In this document: in pieces, positions 45,823-59,845 of the stretch | Layout of the letters: every line of letters begins with the position of its first letter | Position numbering within the stretch: position 1 is the stretch's first letter | Source: Nitrospirales bacterium | GTDB taxonomy: Bacteria > Nitrospirota > Nitrospiria > Nitrospirales > UBA8639 | Assembly: GCA_021604005.1 (NCBI GenBank) | Contig: BQIV01000001.1 | Location: 1 to 64,000, forward strand | Length of the DNA stretch: 64,000 nucleotides | Direction: 5' to 3' | Notes under the pieces: generated by a model | The model's input: the letters and a program-made list of their open reading frames with translations, nothing else | What the model was told of the DNA's origin: nothing | Database searches by the model: none | Program-made: the position numbers and the translations under genes

Positions 45823-45898
45823 GAGCCGCTAGCTCAGTTGGTAGAGCATCGCCCTTTTAAGGCGAGGGTCGAGCGTTCGAGCCGCTCGCGGCTCACCA
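45823..45898 (+). tRNA. tRNA-Lys (anticodon TTT), integration target
   Basis: 76-base cloverleaf: acceptor GAGCCGC / GCGGCTC, D arm GCTC..GAGC, anticodon stem TCGCC / GGCGA with loop CTTTTAA, T arm GAGCG / CGCTC, encoded CCA. The integrase gene on the opposite strand runs through this tRNA. Confidence 0.96.
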
Positions 45899-47028
45899 TT
45901 TTTCAAGGACTTAGAGAGTCCGACTGTTTTGATCGGTCTTTCATAGACCAAACTATCGACCAAATCATTGGCTAAAAAGGGCGAGGCCGCAAGTTTCGTG
46001 ACGGCCTGCCGCAGCTTCTGCTGCCATTCTTTTCCCCCGTGACTATATTCTGCCGTCAGCCCTGGCATCTTGTGCCCCAACAACGCTTGTCGGATTTCAT
46101 AAGACACATCGAGTCGTTGTAACCACGTCGTAAAGGTGTGTCTCAAGTCATGAAAGTGTAAATCCACGACTTTGGCTCGCCGACAAGTCGCTTCCCAGAG
46201 CTTGCGGAATGACCGGATATGCTTCCATCGACGAAAGACACGTCCATCGGCCAGAGCTTGTACATCCACATTCAAGGCGGCTACAGCAATGCTATTGAGG
46301 GGGATCGAAGCGGGATGACCTTTTATGCGGGACTTTGGCGGGGGCAGGTGCAGCCATAAGCCATCTTCATGACGACGGATCCAATTGCGGTCGATGGAGA
46401 GGATTCGACTTGATCGGAGTCCTGTGGTTAGTGCCAGTAAGATGATGCGCCACAGTTCAGGATCGGCTTTTTTCTTGAGTGCAGTGAGTTCGTCATGTTC
46501 GGCCACACGCGTGCGTTTGTCGGCGTCAGGAAGTTCGACGGCTTTCAGCCGGTTGCGGTCCAGCTTTTCGTACGCCACACACAAATTGAGTATGCGATGT
46601 AAAACCTGAAACTCTCGCCTGATTGTACCAGCAGTAGCCTTTTCTTTTAGGCGGGCCACCACATAGTTGAGTCCATCCTCCGCTGTGATCGACGTCAGCG
46701 GTCGATCCCCAAAGAAGGGCAGAAGATAGTGGTCAATAATGCCACGTGGTCGGACCTGATCAATCCGACCTCTGGCTTCAAAGCTGTTCCAAAAAAGCGG
46801 CAAGGCGTCTCTGAAAGTGAAGGTCGCCATGACCGCTTCACGCGTCGCGCCACTTTCACCACGCTGAATGCGCTTGATCAAATCAAACGCACGACGCTCT
46901 GCTTCTTTGGGTGATAAATTATAGCCCAGAAGCGGGCGATATCGTTTGCCTTGCCATCGGTAATCCAGATCGTGGGCGACACCATGCCGCTGGGTTCGGC
47001 GTGTGCGAATTTGGATCTTGATATCCAT
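45829..47028 (-). CDS. Tyrosine recombinase (integrase) of a tRNA-Lys-inserted element
   Basis: 399 residues. N-terminal arm-binding part (RTRRTQRHGVAHDLDYRWQGKRYRPL) and SAM-like core-binding domain (about 70-170). The catalytic domain has Arg in LTTGLRSSRILSI, HDLRHTFTTWL (H-x-x-R), LLGHKMPGLTAEYSH with the Tyr nucleophile. The last 23 codons are the tRNA-Lys gene read antisense, ending MLYQLS and a TAG made by the D arm. That is the hallmark of integration at the 3' part of a tRNA gene. Confidence 0.93.
   Translation of the reverse strand: MDIKIQIRTRRTQRHGVAHDLDYRWQGKRYRPLLGYNLSPKEAERRAFDLIKRIQRGESGATREAVMATFTFRDALPLFWNSFEARGRIDQVRPRGIIDHYLLPFFGDRPLTSITAEDGLNYVVARLKEKATAGTIRREFQVLHRILNLCVAYEKLDRNRLKAVELPDADKRTRVAEHDELTALKKKADPELWRIILLALTTGLRSSRILSIDRNWIRRHEDGLWLHLPPPKSRIKGHPASIPLNSIAVAALNVDVQALADGRVFRRWKHIRSFRKLWEATCRRAKVVDLHFHDLRHTFTTWLQRLDVSYEIRQALLGHKMPGLTAEYSHGGKEWQQKLRQAVTKLAASPFLANDLVDSLVYERPIKTVGLSKSLKNGEPRAARTLDPRLKRAMLYQLS
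45852..45898. other. Presumed attachment site (attL)
   Basis: The anticodon-arm-to-CCA part of tRNA-Lys is the expected crossover region. No second copy of GTTCGAGCCGCTCGCGGCTC was found to the right within the window, so the other end lies beyond 64,000. The limits are inferred. Confidence 0.5.
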
Positions 47029-47905: not shown

Positions 47906-49048
47906 CTATGACATTCGCACTGGCATCAGCACGTGTGTCCAGTGGGGATCTTCTGACGAGATCATGACGCACGGAGCCGTAGGGGAATCCATTGACCATT
48001 CGATGTGTTTTGCCTCTGTTGTTCCCAATCCATCGAGCAAGAACTTTCCATTAAATCCGAGGGTCATTGAACTATCTTGAATCGTGGCTTCCACGCATTC
48101 GTGAGCTTCCCCCACCTGTGCGTTGACAGTGGACAGGGAGAGTTCTGATTCATTGACTTTGATATTAACGGCGTGTGAGATGGGATCACTGATGGCCTCC
48201 ATGCGACGGAGGGCTTCTATCAAAGCAGCTCGTGAGAACTTGACCGTAGGAGACAAGCGTTGAGGCATGATGGCCATGTAGTTGGGAAAGGCGCCGGAGA
48301 GATTCTGTGTCCGGATTTCTCCGTCTGGAAAGAGGAAAATCCAGGTTGATGTAGTCAGCGTGAGTGAAACCGTGATGTCATCTTTGATCTGACGGGCGGT
48401 CTCGACCAGAAGACGGGCAGTACGTTTGGGAATAAGCGCGGTTTCAGGTTGCTTGGGCTTCGTGATCCAAGATCCAGTTTCCTGTGTGATTCGTGTCAGA
48501 CGCTGACCGTCCGTGCCCACGGCGATGAGCGTGGGCGGTTCAGTCGGCAAGACTTGCACCTGAACCGCTTGCAGAAGGTAACGTCCATTTTCTTTTGCCA
48601 CAGACGAAAGCACGGGTTCGAGCAAACACGTCAGAACATTGATGGGGATATTGCATTGTGCGGGTGTGCCGTCAGGGAGAGGTGGGGCAAGAAGGGACCA
48701 ATCTGCTTCGACAGGAGGGAGGATCAGTTGACTTGATTCTGCTTGGATCTGATTCTTTCCCTTTATGGTCGCGATGGAGAGAGTGAGAGTTTTGTGGGAA
48801 ATCGTCTTGATGAATTCGAGTATCACGTCGAAAGGCAGAATGGTTTGACCTTCCATCAAGATCGTAGCTGGGACAGTGACATGGAAATGTTGATCATGGG
48901 TGGTTGCGCGAAGCGTAAGATGGTCTTGGTGAGTGGACATGCCGATGGCGTAGTGCAGAGCATGACTATCAGAGCTTCGTTTATCCAGGGCGTGCGAAAA
49001 GAGTTGAAGCGATTTAAGAAGAGTCGGGCGCGCGCAGGTAAATTTCAT
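47906..49048 (-). CDS. DNA polymerase III beta subunit (sliding clamp) homologue on the element
   Basis: 380 residues, clamp length. The start MKFTCARPTLLKSLQLFSHAL, the repeated domain pattern (RYLLQAVQVQ, IAVGTDGQRLT), FPNYMAIMPQ, and the diagnostic C-terminus HVLMPVRMS (compare VMPMRL in DnaN). It would load on DNA as a ring and tether polymerase. Cellular dnaN usually lies near dnaA; here the gene sits in a mobile element, so it is likely a dedicated or decoy clamp. AGAGGAG precedes the ATG. Confidence 0.88.
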   Translation of the reverse strand: MKFTCARPTLLKSLQLFSHALDKRSSDSHALHYAIGMSTHQDHLTLRATTHDQHFHVTVPATILMEGQTILPFDVILEFIKTISHKTLTLSIATIKGKNQIQAESSQLILPPVEADWSLLAPPLPDGTPAQCNIPINVLTCLLEPVLSSVAKENGRYLLQAVQVQVLPTEPPTLIAVGTDGQRLTRITQETGSWITKPKQPETALIPKRTARLLVETARQIKDDITVSLTLTTSTWIFLFPDGEIRTQNLSGAFPNYMAIMPQRLSPTVKFSRAALIEALRRMEAISDPISHAVNIKVNESELSLSTVNAQVGEAHECVEATIQDSSMTLGFNGKFLLDGLGTTEAKHIEWSMDSPTAPCVMISSEDPHWTHVLMPVRMS

Positions 49049-49136: not shown

Positions 49137-49862
49137 CTAGGATTTCGCTGATTCGGGCGGGAAAAGCGCCTTCAATGTGACAAGAAACTTCGAGATCATG
49201 GGTAGCGGACCGGAGCAATCAAACGAGCGAGTCTCCGTTGCTGATACGTTCGTCACATCAAGTTGAAAACTGCTTGCCAGATTCTTTATGAAGGTTTCTT
49301 CAACGTTTTGAGCATGTGACCCTCCCTCGGCAGTGTCTTCGCCATGAAGAGGAATGGAAACGGTGATACGAGGGATGCCGGATTGCGAGAATGGTCCTTT
49401 GTGGAGTGTGATCGGTTGTATAAGGTCCGCTGAAACATTGGATAGCGCTTCTGCCTCACGAGTCGTTTCATGGGCAGGCGTAAAATCGTGAACTAATCCG
49501 AGAACATGCCGATGTAACGGAAGAAATCGTATGATGATGGTGGTCAGTCGATCATCGATTGTGAGCGAATAGGTACCAATGACCGGTTTCTGGGACTGCG
49601 CGGCTTTGCTAATGGCCGCGAAGACGTGTTCGCCCAGCTCACCAGGCAGAACGGTTTGGATGGGTGAGCCTAGAAACGTCCAGGCACCCTTGAAATGTGG
49701 GACCTCTGGATCAGGATAGCCATAGTCGACGTAGACGCCAGGGTTGTTCCATAGGAATATTTTTGTGGGCACAGATGTGCCCCATTGTGTTTCGTCAAAT
49801 ATTTCCTGCCATGAACATGGGAACTGGCGAGGCGTAGTAGACGAATCTTCGGATTTAGGCAT
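49137..49862 (-). CDS. Hypothetical element protein, PAS-like
   Basis: 241 residues from ATG 49,862 (open to 49,913). No cysteine motif or membrane segment. The segment around WNNPGVYVDYGYPDPEVPHFKGAWTFLGSPIQTVLP and the following beta-rich part could be a PAS-like fold, but I do not recognise a family. It lies between the clamp and primase-like genes on the same strand. Confidence 0.6.
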   Translation of the reverse strand: MPKSEDSSTTPRQFPCSWQEIFDETQWGTSVPTKIFLWNNPGVYVDYGYPDPEVPHFKGAWTFLGSPIQTVLPGELGEHVFAAISKAAQSQKPVIGTYSLTIDDRLTTIIIRFLPLHRHVLGLVHDFTPAHETTREAEALSNVSADLIQPITLHKGPFSQSGIPRITVSIPLHGEDTAEGGSHAQNVEETFIKNLASSFQLDVTNVSATETRSFDCSGPLPMISKFLVTLKALFPPESAKS

Positions 49863-50057
49863 AGGTAGCCCCTCGTTTCTTGTACATGTACGTGCCGATT
49901 CGTGAGATATCAATTCCTAATTTGAGGGGTATGGGAGAACTAGACTGAAAACCCTATTGGGTATTTTGATTAACATGATGATCAAACAATCTCCTCTGCT
50001 TTCCGAACCACATACTAGAGATCTGTTTGTTCTGTTCCGGAAATGAGGTGAGAAGGC

Positions 50058-51125
50058 CTAACGTGAGGTGATGTTGCGCAGGTGCCGATCTACTGAGACA
50101 TTGGCGGGATTGTGTCGAATACCGGTGCGGTCGAGGATATGAGGATCGATGCCCTGTGGGAATCGATGTAGAAGTTTCACAAGGTCTTTGACACGCGCCT
50201 GAGTATGTACTCTCACATCGATAGCAGGAATTCCCAATCCCGTAATCATCTGTATAGCTTCTTGTTGGGACTTTGGTCCACGGTCACGACTGCGGTCGTT
50301 ATCGAGCGCGACATACACAGCTGGTGGCTCCAAGCGTGAAAGGAAAGATGGCAGTTGTGGCAGCATTGCGAGCCCATTTAAAGCGAGGAGACTACATCGT
50401 GGACCGATCAGCGCGTCGCCCGCGAGGCAATCAAAGATGCTTTCGGTAAGAAGAATTGGTTGTCCTGGTCGTGGGAACATCCACAGTGTTTTTTGTGGAC
50501 CCCTGGTGCGGCGTTGATATTTGCGTTCGACGGAACGAAGGGCGCGACATTCGAATCCCTGAAGCGTGCGGACGTCAGACGTAGGAAACGGGAAGGCAAG
50601 GTAGGGAACGCGGAACCGGGGTCTGCTACAATCTGGTTGCAAGAGCATCCACACAGCACCGAGCTCTTCATACCACGGCAGGTGGTGACGGGCGAACACA
50701 TCCTGTAGGGCTCGATACCGTGCCGGAGTCATCGCGGCTTTGGCCCGTGTGTATCGATGACGTATTGATGCGACTGCTTGCTGGCTCTGCTGCGTATGAG
50801 GCTGTGGGGACCGATAATTCCTGGGCTGTGCGCGTAACGGTTGATCAAGTATCTCTCGAACCGCTTCTCGAAACGCGATATTCCGACGTTGTCTGACAAA
50901 GTCGATGATGTCGCCTTTCTCCTTCGTCCCGAAGTCGTGCCAGAACCAACCTTTCTGTAATCGTGAAACCGAAAAGGACGGATCGGCATCTTCTCGCAAG
51001 GGAGAATGAAAGAGTGCGCGCGACGACGTTCTCGATGTTGGCTGAAATCCTAAGGCGATCAAGTAATCAACAAGGTCGATGTGACGTGCGCGCGCGATCT
51101 CTTCGTCGGTGATTGGTCGATCCAT
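50058..51125 (-). CDS. Primase-like protein with Toprim domain
   Basis: 355 residues. The N-terminus (about 15-90) follows the CHC2 zinc-finger layout of DnaG (FHSPLREDADPSFSVSRLQKGWFWHDFG, then GDIIDFVR) but lacks the zinc cysteines. The C-terminal half has Toprim motifs: ILLTESIFDCLA with the catalytic Glu and VYVALDNDRSRD with the metal-binding acids. It probably acts as a mobile-element primase or nicking-closing enzyme in element replication. The cysteine-less finger recalls mobilisation primases. Confidence 0.8.
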   Translation of the reverse strand: MDRPITDEEIARARHIDLVDYLIALGFQPTSRTSSRALFHSPLREDADPSFSVSRLQKGWFWHDFGTKEKGDIIDFVRQRRNIAFREAVREILDQPLRAQPRNYRSPQPHTQQSQQAVASIRHRYTRAKAAMTPARYRALQDVFARHHLPWYEELGAVWMLLQPDCSRPRFRVPYLAFPFPTSDVRTLQGFECRALRSVERKYQRRTRGPQKTLWMFPRPGQPILLTESIFDCLAGDALIGPRCSLLALNGLAMLPQLPSFLSRLEPPAVYVALDNDRSRDRGPKSQQEAIQMITGLGIPAIDVRVHTQARVKDLVKLLHRFPQGIDPHILDRTGIRHNPANVSVDRHLRNITSR

Positions 51126-51193: not shown

Positions 51194-52171
51194 TTAACTG
51201 GCGAGGACTGATGGAGGTGTAAGGGTATCGTCCGCGGCGTCGTCTCCCTCCTCATCGAATGTGATGAGTCTCGAGGGGACATTGATTAACAAGTCATCCA
51301 GCTGGGATTTGATCCGACCCAGTCCATCACAAACTGTGTTTGAGAGATGGTCGTCATTTTTTAGGTGAGTGGCGGTGACCCCACTCAGTAGTGTCTTTGA
51401 TCGTTCCACCAATTCTTGGAGTTCGTGATCCTGCCCGAGATTGCGCGCGTCAAAGCGATTCAAAAAGTCCATAAGGTTCGTGACGGTTGAGGATCGAAAC
51501 GTTTTGCGCTTGCCGACTTCATCGGGAGTCAGTCGATTGATCAAATGTGACACTAAATCCGCCATCGCGGCGCGCAAGGTCCGCTGGATTTCCTGAATCA
51601 TGTCCCTAACCTTATTTGCGGCTTGGGTTTTTTCTCGCGCAAAGACTTCGGAACTGATGGTTTCGAGGACCGCAGGGAGGTCAAAACTCAGATATTGGCA
51701 ATCCACGCGGAACTCGTTTCGAATATCCTCGACAGGCGGATAGTCGTCGGTATCGAACAATGTGCCGAGCCGCAACAAGGCTTCCTGTTTCCGAGTAGGG
51801 TAGACGCCACAAAATGTCTCGATGAGACTGTCACGCTGGCTTTTGTACGTGGTGATGAGTTCATCTAATTCGTGAATGAGCTTGGCCGGTACCAAGGCCA
51901 TGCCCTTGCATAGCGAAGAGGGAAGCGCGATCTGAAACAAGCGGCGGCGGGTTTGGTTGTCCAGCCGCGTGATAGCCTGATATTCGGGACAGTCTAAAAT
52001 GCGTTTGGTGACGCCAATCAGTGCGGGATCTGCTGTGACGGGAAACTCGGTGGTTTCAACTTTTCGACGGATCCCAAACTTTCGGACTGAGAAAAGAAGC
52101 AAGACGGCGTTTTTCAGGAGTTCGGAAAATGGGGAGCGAGACATTGATGCTGTGACTGACGAATTCGTCAT
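51194..52171 (-). CDS. DUF3150-like protein
   Basis: 325 residues, mostly helical. MALVPAKLIHELDELITTYKS, LFDTDDYPPVEDIRNEFRVD and a middle coiled region (KTQAANKVRDMIQEIQRTLR) match my memory of DUF3150, a family that travels next to AAA+ ATPases. Function unknown. AAGGAG precedes the ATG. It is 41 bases behind the AAA+ gene on the same strand, so the pair probably works together, possibly as an ATPase and its adaptor. Confidence 0.6.
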   Translation of the reverse strand: MTNSSVTASMSRSPFSELLKNAVLLLFSVRKFGIRRKVETTEFPVTADPALIGVTKRILDCPEYQAITRLDNQTRRRLFQIALPSSLCKGMALVPAKLIHELDELITTYKSQRDSLIETFCGVYPTRKQEALLRLGTLFDTDDYPPVEDIRNEFRVDCQYLSFDLPAVLETISSEVFAREKTQAANKVRDMIQEIQRTLRAAMADLVSHLINRLTPDEVGKRKTFRSSTVTNLMDFLNRFDARNLGQDHELQELVERSKTLLSGVTATHLKNDDHLSNTVCDGLGRIKSQLDDLLINVPSRLITFDEEGDDAADDTLTPPSVLAS

Positions 52172-52212: not shown

Positions 52213-53736
52213 TTAATCCGGTAGCGTGATCGTGCGCGAGTGTATCTCGTTCGCACTCACTGCATGATCATCGAAGCGATAAGGACCGGGATAGTTGGCG
52301 GAGAGAAAACGGCCGTTGGCTTGACTGCGAAGGAGTTTGATCTGCTCAGCGGCACTTTGGGCAATCGGAACGATGTAGCGTGCGGCTTCGGTCACAGAAC
52401 ACCTGAGGCGCCAGGCGAGGTCACAACATTGGCGGATTTCTGAACCAGTCCAGCCGTTGTCGTTGGGAAGAGTGGAATCCTCAAGTTGATACTGCGAGAG
52501 GTAAATACGCCAGATCGCCGATCGTTCTTCGGCGGACGGGAGGTCAAAGTACATGATCCCGAGCGTAAAACGTCGTCGTAACTCTGGAGACAACGCCTGC
52601 AACGAATTACATGTGGCCAGGAACAATGTCGCGTCGTCTGAAACGGCAGAGATGACCTTCAACGCCTGACGGAGATTAGACTCACTGGATCCGACGAGAG
52701 AATCTTTCATGCTACCGAGATCAAGCGCGATGGTTGGAATGTTCGCTTCATTTCCTGCAGCTTTTGCGACAAGGGACTTACTCGTTCCTGGTGGCCCCAC
52801 GAACAACATCCCGGTGGCGTTCGTGTTTTGCATGTACGTGAGGAGCATCCCGTGGAAAGCTTGTGCGATTCCGCTCGTATCGTGTGCCTGACCGCTCGTT
52901 CCCGCCATGGCCTTTTCGATTTCATCAATAAAGACAATGGATCGAGGTGGCGCGTTCCCCGTCAACAGTTGAGAGATGAACGTCTTGATGGCCAAGACCC
53001 CTCCGATGTCTGCGAACCGCTCAGATCCACCCCAAACTGTTAGTCCTGGCGTCGATTCAATAAGTTGGCGCTTACGGTCCCATAGACGGCTTAAGTCCAC
53101 ACCTTTTTTGGTCAGGCACATGGCGGTAATCTGCTCAGCGGAAAAGGATGCCAGTCCGCGCACGGCATCGACGGCGAGGGTGAGCGTCTGCGGGTCTGGT
53201 GCCTCTAAGTCAGCCGCGATATACTGGTCACAGACAATTTCTTGTAAGTCTTTGGGCGTCGGGAGTGGCTCGTCAACGATGAGGATATCGTGCCGTAGCT
53301 CTTCGGGAATGCTGATTGAGGGGGCGAGGAGGATGAGCATGCGCTGGTTTTGTTTGAATTGGTCACGCAGGTTCCACATCGATTGTGCGACGACCTCGTG
53401 ATGAATGAACCGATGGGCGTTTTGAAAAAATAGGATGGTGCCTTGAGGGAATTGTCGCGCCATTGAAAGCGCATCTTGAGGTCGAATGGTTGCAAAGGGG
53501 TCATGTGTGCTGTCGCCCTTGCCGAGCGCGTCCTGACCGGCTTCATTATGTGCAAGGATCCCGTTCACGAAATCCCATTTCAATATAGGAGGGGGCTGGT
53601 CAGAGTTTCTGAGGATACTGGCCAAGATAGTTCTGATGCAGTGGGCTGGGTCAGAGGTGGTTACCGCGATCAGCGGAACCGAGACTCGTCTGGCCGCGCG
53701 GATTTGTGTGAGCCACAATGGCATAAAAGAAGACAT
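52213..53736 (-). CDS. AAA+ ATPase with Walker B before Walker A (Ycf46-like, apparently permuted)
   Basis: 507 residues. The N-terminal half (about 1-200) resembles the divergent RecA-like half of Ycf46-type ATPases (GTILFFQNAHRF, LILLAPSISIPEELR). The catalytic half has an unusual order: SIVFIDEIEKAMAG (Walker B, D271-E272), then MLFVGPPGTSKS (Walker A, 314-321), LFLATCNS (sensor 1, N377) and ELRRRF (387-389). In ordinary AAA+ proteins Walker A comes first. All key residues are kept, so it should still bind ATP; Walker A has Ser for the last Gly. AAGGAG precedes ATG 53,736. Confidence 0.88.
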   Translation of the reverse strand: MSSFMPLWLTQIRAARRVSVPLIAVTTSDPAHCIRTILASILRNSDQPPPILKWDFVNGILAHNEAGQDALGKGDSTHDPFATIRPQDALSMARQFPQGTILFFQNAHRFIHHEVVAQSMWNLRDQFKQNQRMLILLAPSISIPEELRHDILIVDEPLPTPKDLQEIVCDQYIAADLEAPDPQTLTLAVDAVRGLASFSAEQITAMCLTKKGVDLSRLWDRKRQLIESTPGLTVWGGSERFADIGGVLAIKTFISQLLTGNAPPRSIVFIDEIEKAMAGTSGQAHDTSGIAQAFHGMLLTYMQNTNATGMLFVGPPGTSKSLVAKAAGNEANIPTIALDLGSMKDSLVGSSESNLRQALKVISAVSDDATLFLATCNSLQALSPELRRRFTLGIMYFDLPSAEERSAIWRIYLSQYQLEDSTLPNDNGWTGSEIRQCCDLAWRLRCSVTEAARYIVPIAQSAAEQIKLLRSQANGRFLSANYPGPYRFDDHAVSANEIHSRTITLPD

Positions 53737-54940: not shown

Positions 54941-57900
54941 TTACGAACACCCACTGGTCGCACCGCAGCTCACGCATTTAAGGCACGTGCCGTTCCGCAC
55001 CATCGTAAAATTCTTGCATTCCAGACACGGATCGCCTTCGTAGCCGGATAGCCGTGCCTGCTCGATGAGGTCATGTGTCGGATGACCGTTTAGGGAAGAC
55101 GTGTTGGCCTGATTGTAGGCTTGCTTGTCCTTGCCCGTGGAAGACGCCTGTGCAGGTGATGAACTCACGAAATCGCCGCGCAGGTCGTCTAGTGGCACAT
55201 GAGCCAGATCATGGCGACCAAGGTAGGTAATGGCGAGTTCGCGAAAGATATAGTCAATGATTGACGTGGACATTTTGATCTGAGGGTTTAATGTGACCGG
55301 ACCATTGGGTTCGAAACGTGTGTGAACGAACGCATCGACGAATTCGTCTAATGGCACGCCGTGCTGAAGGCCCAGGGAGATGGCAATCGCAAAACAGTTC
55401 ATCAGACTCCGAAAGGCGGCGCCTTCCTTGTGCATATCCACAAAAATTTCTCCTAACGTGCCATCTTCATATTCGCCTGTTCGCAAGTAAACTTTATGGC
55501 CGCCAACAACCGCTTTTTGCGTGTAACCTTGACGCCGGGTGGGTAAGGTGCGCCGGTTGGCCAAGTTCTGAATTACTACATGGGAGGCCGTAGCTTCGAC
55601 GGTGTCTCCTGCTGGGGTTGATTCATGATGCATAGGCTTATCCGTCATGGAGGTGGAGAGTGGTTGACTGAGCTTTGAGCCGTCCCGATAAAGGGCCACT
55701 GCTTTTAACATTGACTGCCAGCCCAATAGATAGGCATCTTTGACAGCTTCGACAGTAGACTCAGACGGCATATTGATGGTCTTGCTGATGGCGCCGCTGA
55801 TGAATGGTTGGGCTGCAGCCATCATCCGAATGTGCGCATGAACTGGGATAAATCGTTGGCCAATACGTCCGCACCGGTTAGCACAATCAAAGACTGGTAA
55901 ATGTTCTGATTTCAGGTGAGGGGCACTCTCGACCGTCATGGTTCCACAGCAGTAATCTGTGGCGGCTATGATTTGCTCCTGGGTAAATCCTAATGCCTTC
56001 AACATGTTGAAGTGAGGATCATTCAATTGGCTGTCGGTGAGCTTGAGTTCCTCCCTGCAAAAATCTTCTCCTAAGGTCCATTTGTTAAAGGCAAATTGGA
56101 TGTCAAAGGCTCCCTCCAGTGCCACTTCAATGCGCTCAAGGGCCTGGTTATCAAACCCCTTGGCCCTCAAGCTTTCATGATGAATGAAGGGAGCGTCCCG
56201 TAAGGTGCGAGTCCCTGTGGCATACGTCACGATATCCTGAATCTGAATTTGAGAGTAGCCCAGAGATTCTAAAGCTGGGGGAAGACTTTGGTTGATGATT
56301 TTAAAATACCCTCCTCCAGCTAATTTTTTAAATTTCACCAAGGCAAAATCTGGTTCAATGCCCGTTGTGTCACAATCCATGACCAATCCAATCGTACCGG
56401 TTGGAGCGATCACCGTGGTCTGGGCGTTCCGGAATCCATGTATTTGGCCCAACCCCAAGGCACGGTCCCAAGCCTGGCGGGCGGCCAGGAGCAGATCAGG
56501 TGGGCAATGTTCCGGATTGATACCCATGGGGAAAATTGTCAAGCCTTCGTATTCTTCATGTGAAGCGTTATAGGCGGCGCGCCGGTGATTCCACATGACC
56601 CGAAGCATGGCCTCTCGATTTCGAGGGAAAGCCTCGAATGGACCGAGTTCAGCGGCCATTTCGGCCGATGTCGCGTATGCCTCGCCCGTCATGATAGCTG
56701 TGATTACTCCGCAGATGGCCAAGGCTTTAGGAGAGTCGTAGGGAATTCCTTGGCGCATGAGGATAGAACCAAGGTTGGCGAAGCCTAAGCCAAGGGTTCG
56801 GAAGGCAAAGCTTTTTTCAGCAATGGCACGGCTGGGAAAGCCAGCCATGAGCACGCTGATTTCTAGGACAATTGTCCATAATCTCACCGCATGGCGGAAT
56901 CCATCGAGATCAAATTGCCCATCTGGTGTGATGAACTGGCCCAGGTTTAATGAGGCAAGATTACAGGCCGTGTCATCCAGAAACATATATTCACTGCAAG
57001 GATTCGAAGCATTGATACGGCCATCTTCGGGACAGGTATGCCATTCGTTAATGGTGCTGTCATATTGGACTCCAGGATCGGCACACACCCATGCAGCCCA
57101 GGCGATGCGATTCCACAGATCGCGAGCCTTAACGGTTTTACAAACGACTCCATCCGTTCTTCGAGTGAGGGACCAGTCGCCGTCGTGCTGTAAAGCCTCA
57201 AAAAATTCATTGGGAATGCGGATGCTGTTATTCGAGTTTTGTCCGGAAACGGTTTGGTAGGCTTTGCTATCCCAGTTCGTATCGTACTCGTGAAAGACAA
57301 AATGAGTGAACCCTGCTAGAGCGTAACCAGACATACGTTGGATATAGGCCTCGGGAATGGCGACTTCACGGGCGGTATGAATGGCTTCTTTCAAAGCTGG
57401 ATTCATATGTGGATCAGTTTCCACCTTGGAGGACCCATCAGCTTGAGGAATATGGCAGGCCATTAAGATGGAGTTTAACCGCTGAGCACAGAGCTTAGAG
57501 CCAGTGACCATAGCTGCGACTTTTTGTTCTTCGATGACCTTCCAGTCGATGAATTCTTCAACGTCGGGATGATCAAGATCGAGGCAGACCATCTTGGCCG
57601 CACGACGTGTGGTTCCACCGGATTTAATGGCACCAGCCGCACGATCCCCAATTTTTAAGAATGACATAAGCCCGGAGGAACGACCTCCACCTGATAGGGG
57701 CTCTCTGTCTCCTCGCAATTTGGAAAAATTCGTGCCGGTTCCAGATCCATATTTGAACAGGCGTGCTTCCCTCTGCCAGAGATCCATGATTCCTCTTTCA
57801 TTCACTAAATCATCAGAGACTGATTGAATGAAACAGGCATGCACTTGCGGACGTTCATAGGCAGTGGCGGTTGGATGACACTCACCGGTCGATGGATTGA

Positions 57901-58366
57901 CGGCGTAGTGTCCTTGTGCTGGTCCCGTGATTCCATAGGTCCAATGCAAGCCCGTATTAAACCATTGAGGGGAATTGGGGGCGGCCATTTGATGGGCAAG
58001 CATATAACAACATTCGTCGTAAAATGCGTGGGCGTCTTCATCAGAATCGAAATACCCATAGGTTTTTCCCCAATGTGTCCAACAGCCCGCCATTCGATGA
58101 AAGACTTGACGCGCGTCATGTTCTCCAGAGGCCTCGGCAGAGAGAGGGTTCCCATGTTGGTCGCGTCTCGGGACGCCGGCTTTGCGGAAAAACTTTTGCG
58201 CTAGGATATCGACAGCTAAGGGTGACCACTGTTCTGGTGTCTGAATGTTTTCTTGGTGGAACACGACGGAACCATCGGGATTTTTTATTGTGGATGTTCG
58301 AGAGACAAACGACAGACCGATGTAGGGGTCCTGATCTGCGACGGTGAAGAAACGAGCGATTTTCAT
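54941..58366 (-). CDS. nrdJ: Vitamin B12-dependent (class II) ribonucleotide reductase
   Basis: 1141 residues from ATG 58,366 (GAGGAG upstream). The catalytic barrel has [19 protein letters not shown] (C457), the N-terminal [25 protein letters not shown], and [24 protein letters not shown]. The C-terminal zinc-ribbon-like tail ([21 protein letters not shown], then GCS) carries the redox cysteines. The enzyme makes dNTP precursors using adenosylcobalamin and needs no oxygen. It lies inside the tRNA-Lys element, on the same strand as the clamp and primase-like genes, divergent from the TraD-like gene. Confidence 0.95.
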
Positions 58367-58450
58367 AAACGGACTCCTCAAAAAGACAACACTGCCCTCT
58401 ACTGATGGTAGTACGAGGGCGCGTTGAGACCTGACAGAGCTGAAGGGACT

Positions 58451-59845
58451 ATGACGAGCTGGGAGCGCTTAGCGCGGATCAATCAGGAGGGCTTTCTACG
58501 CCCCCTCTATAAGGACATGACGGTGCTGGGCCATGGCGCCGATCTCCAACACGTGCAATCCGAGGGACTGATCGGGTTCCCTGATCGCGAACGGTCTGGC
58601 CACCTGGGATGCTTAGGTACCACTCGAATCGGGAAGACGCGGTTGATGGAGTGGGTGATCGAACAAGATATGCGGAAGGGGTATTCCGTAGTCGTCGTGG
58701 ATCCTAAAGGTGATCATGAGCTGTTTTCGAAAGTGATCCAAGTGGCTGCTGAGTGTGGGCGACTGGAGGAAGTCATGTTGCTCACGCCGATTTTCCCCGA
58801 CCAGAGTCTCATGATCGATCCATTAGCCAATTACTACATGGAAGATGAACTCGTGAGCCATATTACGAGCAGCATTAAGCCTAAAGACGAGTATTATCTC
58901 AACGTAGCCACCGAAGTCGCGCAATTTGTCGTCGCGGGCTTGTGTCGGCTGGGGAGAGTCAGCGGCGGGTCCCAATCGTTGACATTTCAGGATATCAAGA
59001 ATCGTATCGGGTTTGAGGATCTTCGGCAATTGCGTGACGCGTTGGAAGCGCTAGGTGATGCGGAAGAGTTGTGTCATGGGATTGATCAGATGGTACAGAA
59101 CCCCGGGTTGGCGGAATTTTATGGAAAAGTGTCGTCTTCGCTACGCACGACATTATCGGCCCTGACGTTCGGATCGACGGGGCATATTATTGGGAAAGCG
59201 TCGTCCAACGTCTTCATCGATCGGCTCGAACGGGGGCAGTCTGTGCTCTTGTACTGTAACACAGGGAGTTTGCTCACACGGAGGACCGCAAACATTATTG
59301 GCAAAGTGTTTGTCAGTATGGTGCAAAGCTTGGTGGGGCGCATCTTTGCTTCTGGGCGGAAACTGTCACCTCCACTGTGCCTGCATATCGACGAGGGCCA
59401 TAACGTGCTCTATCCCGGTATGGAGGAGTTGATGAACAAAGGTGGTGGGGCGGACGTCTGGCTTTCGCTCTACACGCAATCCCTCGCGCAAGTGGAGGAT
59501 GCCGTGGGCCCGACAGCCGCGAGGAGCATCGTGGATAATATCAATAGCTGGGTCTATTTCTTGGTCAATCACCCCATGACCGCCGATCACATCGAACAAA
59601 CATCTCCACTCATTCAGCGGCATGAACCGGTCATATCGCTAGGCGGTGGCATCACGATGAGAACCCTAGATGTCCCCTTGGTGCGTGCCCACAAAGTCTC
59701 GAGCTTGCCAAAACAATGGTTCTATTTTCGCTCGCAGGGGCGCTTTGCCAAAGGTTGGACGATGAAAGTCGTGCCCGCCAAGGTTTCAGTGAAGTTTCCT
59801 CAGATCCGTCCCATGGACTCGGCGGCGCCAGCGGTGGGTGAATAA
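58451..59845 (+). CDS. TraD/TraG-like coupling ATPase
   Basis: 464 residues. [19 protein letters not shown] (Walker A), [13 protein letters not shown], a Walker-B-like [19 protein letters not shown], and [14 protein letters not shown]. No N-terminal membrane helices, unlike F-type TraD, so it resembles soluble or helper coupling ATPases of integrative conjugative elements. It would bring DNA to a type IV secretion channel, but no other transfer gene is in view. AAGGGA precedes ATG 58,451; an earlier ATG at 58,424 exists. Confidence 0.83.

Follow-up and report, generated by a model that had tools for sequence, protein, structure and literature searches.

A Ycf46-type AAA+ ATPase from a mobile element of a Nitrospirales bacterium with two adjacent core segments exchanged

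The window analyzed here, a stretch of 64,000 nucleotides from contig BQIV01000001.1 of a Nitrospirales bacterium (assembly GCA_021604005.1, positions 1 to 64,000), contains in its right part the left end of a 213.6-kb element inserted in tRNA-Lys. The element carries F-type conjugation genes (TraC, TraG, TraU, TraH, and TrbI) in addition to RND and P-type metal efflux genes. Because conjugation genes are carried, the element is most likely an integrative conjugative element; a prophage as the carrier is not supported, given the presence of the same Tra and Trb genes. The features of the locus are collected in Table 1. Beyond these, a long ribonucleotide reductase (1146 aa) with a match to a large-subunit phage family is encoded at 54941-58381, upstream of the OmpA-like and ATPase genes. 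The genes for the primase and the clamp are separated by 49137-49913, which encodes a conserved 258-aa protein for which no match is found in Pfam or PHROG; copies with 66-70% identity are present in two related genomes (L004 and L005). A TraD/TraG-like coupling-protein homologue (58424-59845) lies on the opposite strand; its identity to the counterparts in the related elements L004 and L005 is approximately 91%, and it is far more conserved than the genes around it.

Table 1. Features of the locus and of the ATPase P0001 (window coordinates)
Feature	Coordinates	Strand	Evidence
Putative attL, 38-bp 3' end of tRNA-Lys	45861..45898	+	exact repeat 213.6 kb on, G000:C1:259513-259550
Tyrosine integrase, left end of the mobile element	45829..47028	-	Pfam Phage_integrase, 48 bits
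DNA polymerase III beta-clamp homologue	47906..49048	-	Pfam; PHROG processivity factor
CHC2/Toprim primase-like gene	50058..51125	-	Pfam Zn_ribbon_DnaG, 31.8 bits
Partner gene, 325 aa, DUF3150-named family, next gene downstream of the ATPase	51194..52171	-	profile built from permuted loci
P0001 CDS, 507-aa Ycf46-type AAA+ ATPase with core segments swapped	52213..53736	-	translation; Pfam AAA; order kept in 98 sequences
N-terminal domain and helix α0, residues 11-256, usual place	52969..53706	-	canonical Ycf46-type profile positions 17-260
Moved block β3 (Walker B) and α3, residues 265-304	52825..52944	-	profile 337-377 = residues 265-306; E266-270 and H290-304 in the model
Walker B FIDEIEK, residues 269-275 (D271, E272)	52912..52932	-	D in 97/98, E in 98/98 of the permuted family
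β1 (Walker A)-α1-β2-α2, residues 305-366, after the Walker B block	52639..52824	-	profile 278-336 = residues 308-366
Walker A GPPGTSKS, residues 314-321 (K320)	52774..52797	-	K320 in 98/98
β4/sensor 1, arginine-finger region, β5 and lid, residues 367-481, usual place	52294..52638	-	profile 382-507 = residues 372-481
Sensor 1 ATCN, residues 374-377 (N377)	52606..52617	-	T375 and N377 in 98/98

The feature by which AAA+ proteins are recognized is a chain in which Walker A comes first, Walker B second, and sensor 1 third. The minus-strand frame at 52213-53736 gives a stop-free translation of 507 codons, here called P0001, which matches the Pfam AAA model with 63.5 bits (cut-off 21.2), and the best stretch of this match begins at the P-loop. 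An earlier note on this DNA had placed the Walker B residues D271-E272 ahead of the P-loop (314-321), with 43 residues from D271 to G314 and 63 residues from G314 to N377 of sensor 1, and all of these positions and spacings are exact in the translation. The Walker B motif reads IVFIDE and fits the AAA+ pattern hhhhDE. The linear order of P0001 is not the β1(A)-β2-β3(B)-β4(S1)-β5 of AAA+ proteins but β3(B)-β1(A)-β2-β4(S1)-β5 instead.

The anatomy of this change is revealed by a profile of the ordinary order, which was built from 17 Ycf46-type proteins. The profile matches P0001 piecewise, in four segments of which the second and third are out of order (Table 1), in agreement with the kinship to Ycf46 that the earlier note had recognized, and the other permuted members show the same out-of-order four-segment pattern. 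The Ycf46-type N-terminal domain (82.8 bits) and the C-terminal lid (42.7 bits) are both in their normal position, whereas the AAA core, continuous and in ordinary order in the Ycf46 family, matches as two exchanged pieces. Since the core matches are out of order while the flanks are in place, the blocks β1-α1-β2-α2 and β3-α3 have been exchanged, so that an ordinary arrangement α0 / β1(Walker A)-α1-β2-α2 / β3(Walker B)-α3 / β4(sensor 1) would have become α0 / β3-α3 / β1-α1-β2-α2 / β4. When the two blocks of P0001 are exchanged in silico, the best single profile match rises from 82.8 to 264.3 bits and becomes continuous, which bears out the earlier reading that the Walker B block stands in front of the P-loop and refines it: two adjacent internal segments are exchanged, which differs from a circular permutation, in which the domain as a whole would be affected. 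A full scan of breakpoints has its optimum at 264/304/366, positions that lie in the loops before β3, between α3 and β1, and between α2 and β4, and random swaps score best when they fall near these breakpoints. Remnants of a duplication were sought with the profile, and each core piece is found once in the members listed.

The search for relatives covered bacterial genomes, viral contigs, phages, and plasmids, and the removal of duplicates left 98 permuted sequences. Their sources are bacterial genomes and contigs of uncultivated viruses, together with one isolated phage and a conjugative element. This homologue search, which the earlier note had proposed, reveals that the order is shared by a monophyletic family in phages and other mobile elements; the swapped order is not limited to this element but belongs to a family of single origin, most members of which lie on phage contigs. 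The nearest relatives of P0001 (36-86% identity in the AAA domain) all have Walker B first, and gp103 of the isolated soil phage Tunturi_3 is a permuted member that is 39% identical to P0001. With these queries, a permuted protein was found in five of the approximately 250 genomes of the phylum that were examined. The residues E272, K320, and N377 follow one another in this order in all 98 sequences, with 43-50 residues from E272 to K320 and 57-60 from K320 to N377. Conservation at the catalytic positions is nearly complete: 97 of 98 sequences keep the aspartate of Walker B, and every sequence has the Walker B glutamate, G317 and K320 of the P-loop, the polar sensor 1 residue N377, and the arginine R389 in the finger region (the putative arginine finger). 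A second Walker B-like motif, hhh(D/E)(D/E), which the earlier note had named as evidence against its reading, is absent between the P-loop and sensor 1 of P0001 and is found there in 0 of the 98. Divergent Walker B motifs are observed in a few permuted members (RMDEIQR in L147, LWDEIEK in L093, and EE for DE in L135).

The two orders separate the relatives cleanly: approximately 140 of the fetched relatives have the ordinary order, in which Walker B follows Walker A by approximately 55 residues. The permuted members form one clade, with a support of 1.0 when the tree is built solely on the N- and C-terminal regions outside the swap and of 0.98 when it is built on the swapped core. The nearest relatives with the ordinary order are L144-L150, which are encoded on viral contigs, and a protein of a Manganitrophus plasmid, and the lid and C-terminal part of one of these (L145) are visibly the same as in P0001; the sister-group placement of the permuted clade is weak (support 0.60 in the full tree).

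AlphaFold2 models were obtained for the full protein (15 sequences, pLDDT 85.4) and for the AAA domain (40 sequences, pLDDT 91.1, pTM 0.86). The elements of the AAA-domain model follow one another as β3, α3, β1, α1, β2, α2, β4, and β5. In the full-protein model, the β1-α2 block comprises E308-313, H320-331, E335-338, and H350-366, and the monomer model is confident throughout the β3-α3 region except for the loop 280-286. In the canonical AAA+ sheet, the strand order is 5-1-4-3-2. Direct couplings were computed in the 98 permuted sequences, an alignment of modest depth (Neff 82), and the four strongest of the ten strand pairs are β1-β5, β1-β4, β3-β4, and β2-β3, which are the canonical sheet neighbors and place β3 between β4 and β2. 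If every possible set of four pairs had the same chance, an exact hit would occur with a probability of 1 in 210. Of 16 subsampled runs, 9 recover all four canonical pairs and 14 recover three or more; column-shuffled data yield one or two canonical pairs, with some single scores as high but the correct pairing pattern absent. Additionally, the residue pairs 265/367 and 266/366, which lie on either side of the junction where the chain of ordinary members runs on unbroken, rank fourth and fifth among the couplings. Foldseek matches solved AAA+ domains with a probability of 1.00 but with a TM of approximately 0.5 and a high rmsd, as expected of a sequential aligner that meets swapped segments, and these values speak neither for nor against a shared pocket. 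The confident model has the Walker B-first order, and together with the coevolution signal it indicates that the moved β3-α3 block most likely sits in its usual place in the fold. The segments would then pack canonically (5-1-4-3-2), and Walker A, Walker B, and sensor 1 would come together in one predicted pocket.

We consider it highly probable that P0001 is an active Ycf46-group AAA+ ATPase, as predicted, with two adjacent core segments exchanged and packing as usual, and other accounts of the order were weighed against this reading. An artefact of assembly, a frameshift, or a fusion of two genes is so improbable that it can be set aside: the frame is uninterrupted, and the order recurs in about a hundred independent assemblies from genomes, viral contigs, and an isolated phage, which argues against chance or assembly error, and the artefact was rejected on these many independent occurrences. 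A quite different possibility is that the swap has ended ATP hydrolysis and that the protein, with a degenerate catalytic core, has been kept as a binding or scaffold protein. The divergent member L147, in which DEIQR replaces DEIEK, could be read in this way; however, the Walker A lysine, the Walker B glutamate, the sensor 1 asparagine, and R389 are invariant in the 98 sequences, some of which are only 36% identical to P0001 in the AAA domain, and this invariance across diverse members makes a loss of catalysis improbable. We give a similarly low probability to a segment-swapped ring in which β3-α3 completes the ATP site of the neighboring subunit, so that each pocket is built from two chains. 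Such an arrangement would suit the position of β3-α3 at the head of the domain, from which the linkers must cross extra strands if the block packs in cis, and the couplings do not separate cis from trans. The linkers of P0001 are nevertheless short and span a few residues near 260-266 and 304-308, and apart from the loop noted above the prediction for the monomer is of high confidence across the region, which favors packing of the exchanged segments within one chain.

The 325-aa partner is encoded by the gene that follows the ATPase gene (51194-52171). A Pfam search of the partner gave no match, and a profile built from the permuted loci finds it at 50 of 52 permuted loci and at 7 of 7 of the nearest ordinary loci. 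Among other loci with the ordinary order, it is found at 27 of 46 on viral contigs and at 0 of 76 on genome contigs, mostly of Nitrospira. In all 42 permuted loci where clustering found it, the partner family (approximately 310 aa) is on the same strand as the ATPase. The partner matches the gene annotated DUF3150 in an operon of a Manganitrophus plasmid, AAA-DUF1257-DUF2997-DUF3150, the ATPase of which has the ordinary order. Ycf35-like (DUF1257) and DUF2997-like genes are present at 20-21 of the 52 permuted loci and also in this ordinary-order plasmid operon and at 7 of 7 of the nearest ordinary loci. As the partner accompanies both the permuted and the nearest ordinary ATPases, the operon appears from its gene content to be much alike with either ATPase order and to have kept its role. 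Further neighbors of the permuted loci are genes of early functions or of DNA metabolism, which encode helicases, DNA polymerase A, DnaB, RecT, and a RecE-like exonuclease; in the window, the primase-like gene and the beta-clamp homologue are the corresponding neighbors. At some loci (L084, L115, L132, L133, L137, and others), an approximately 107-aa protein starting with MPC and an approximately 70-aa histidine-tailed protein are often encoded beside the ATPase gene, at the position that the Ycf35-like and DUF2997-like genes take elsewhere, and perhaps replace them. The DUF3150 gene of the Manganitrophus plasmid (L114:7949-8835) is seemingly split into two overlapping frames, both of which match the partner profile.

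Ycf46 itself has, to our knowledge, no firmly established molecular function that could be carried over. From the operon and its neighbors, the ATPase probably forms a ring that uses ATP to remodel proteins on behalf of the mobile element; the ring may act with the approximately 310-aa partner, and often with the Ycf35-like and DUF2997-like proteins, and would work in the early or DNA-metabolism region of the element. An alternative that bears on the function of the protein and leaves the swapped order untouched is a role in anti-phage defense or as a toxin-antitoxin ATPase, in the manner of IetA or of the SGI1 antitoxin; we give it a low probability beside such a remodeler. The AAA domain of IetA and the SGI1 antitoxin is related to that of P0001, and a defense search with PADLOC returned weak IetA matches of about 44 bits and nothing stronger; the score of 44.7 is far below the curated cut-off of 510 bits. 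A related ATPase of the SpoVK/Ycf46/Vps4 group encoded on SGI1 pairs with a toxin that is a subtilisin-like protease, as IetA does (PMC10954446). Such a protease is not among the annotated or conserved neighbors of the P0001 loci, where the conserved genes are those of the approximately 310-aa partner and the Ycf35-like and DUF2997-like proteins, which favors the remodeling role.

The position of the breakpoints in loops suggests a duplication-deletion route to the swapped order. A unit of approximately 100 residues from β1 to α3 may have been duplicated in tandem, and the first β1-α2 half and the last β3-α3 half may then have been lost; we infer that duplication with partial loss is the most likely route. 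The simplest account of the single clade would be that the exchange occurred once, in an ancestor carried on a phage or plasmid.

A comparison with known systems reveals how closely P0001 resembles its relatives apart from the order. The ordinary branch of Ycf46-type proteins on phages and plasmids (L144-L150 and L114) shares with P0001 the N-terminal domain, the GG-containing helix α0, the P-loop, the DEIEK Walker B, sensor 1, a lid with WTGAEI, the partner, and the Ycf35-like and DUF2997-like genes. In ordinary Ycf46-type proteins, however, Walker A lies approximately 55 residues before Walker B, whereas in the permuted proteins the glutamate of Walker B comes 43-50 residues ahead of the lysine of the P-loop. 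In sequence and structure matches, p97/Cdc48, Vps4, and spastin likewise share the P-loop, Walker B, sensor 1, arginines, and lid but differ in segment order, with no continuous alignment of the core to P0001; p97/Cdc48 chains match as separate P-loop and Walker B pieces in the wrong relative order. Among P-loop NTPases, the circularly permuted GTPases RsgA/YjeQ and YlqF are a precedent for reordered motifs. These GTPases are permuted over the whole domain, whereas in P0001 two internal AAA+ segments are exchanged and both ends are in place.

The earlier note had known of no described permuted Ycf46-type AAA+ protein, and no earlier description of a swapped AAA+/Ycf46 order was found in the open-licence literature searched. 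P0001 is plainly akin to the AAA+ and Ycf46 proteins but lacks the linear order that defines them, so that, judged by its sequence, it is a structural variant of this kinship that is new in its linear order. It is probable that the permuted proteins are working AAA+ motors that form a large family of single origin with a non-circular exchange of two segments, a kind of rewiring not described before among AAA+ ATPases, and that this family has replaced the ordinary Ycf46-type ATPase in a conserved phage and plasmid operon with a dedicated partner. The finding points to a widespread, uncharacterized phage and plasmid module that comprises a Ycf46-type ATPase, its dedicated partner, and Ycf35-like and DUF2997-like proteins, and the swapped order accounts for the fragmentary matches that such proteins give in profile searches. 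In approximately 100 diverse members, the order is broken and the catalytic residues are kept, which indicates that the fold can accommodate a change of three of its internal connections and suggests that a common motor fold can be rewired and stay in use. The family thereby offers a natural test of how far topology can shift without loss of function and of how such shifts arise.
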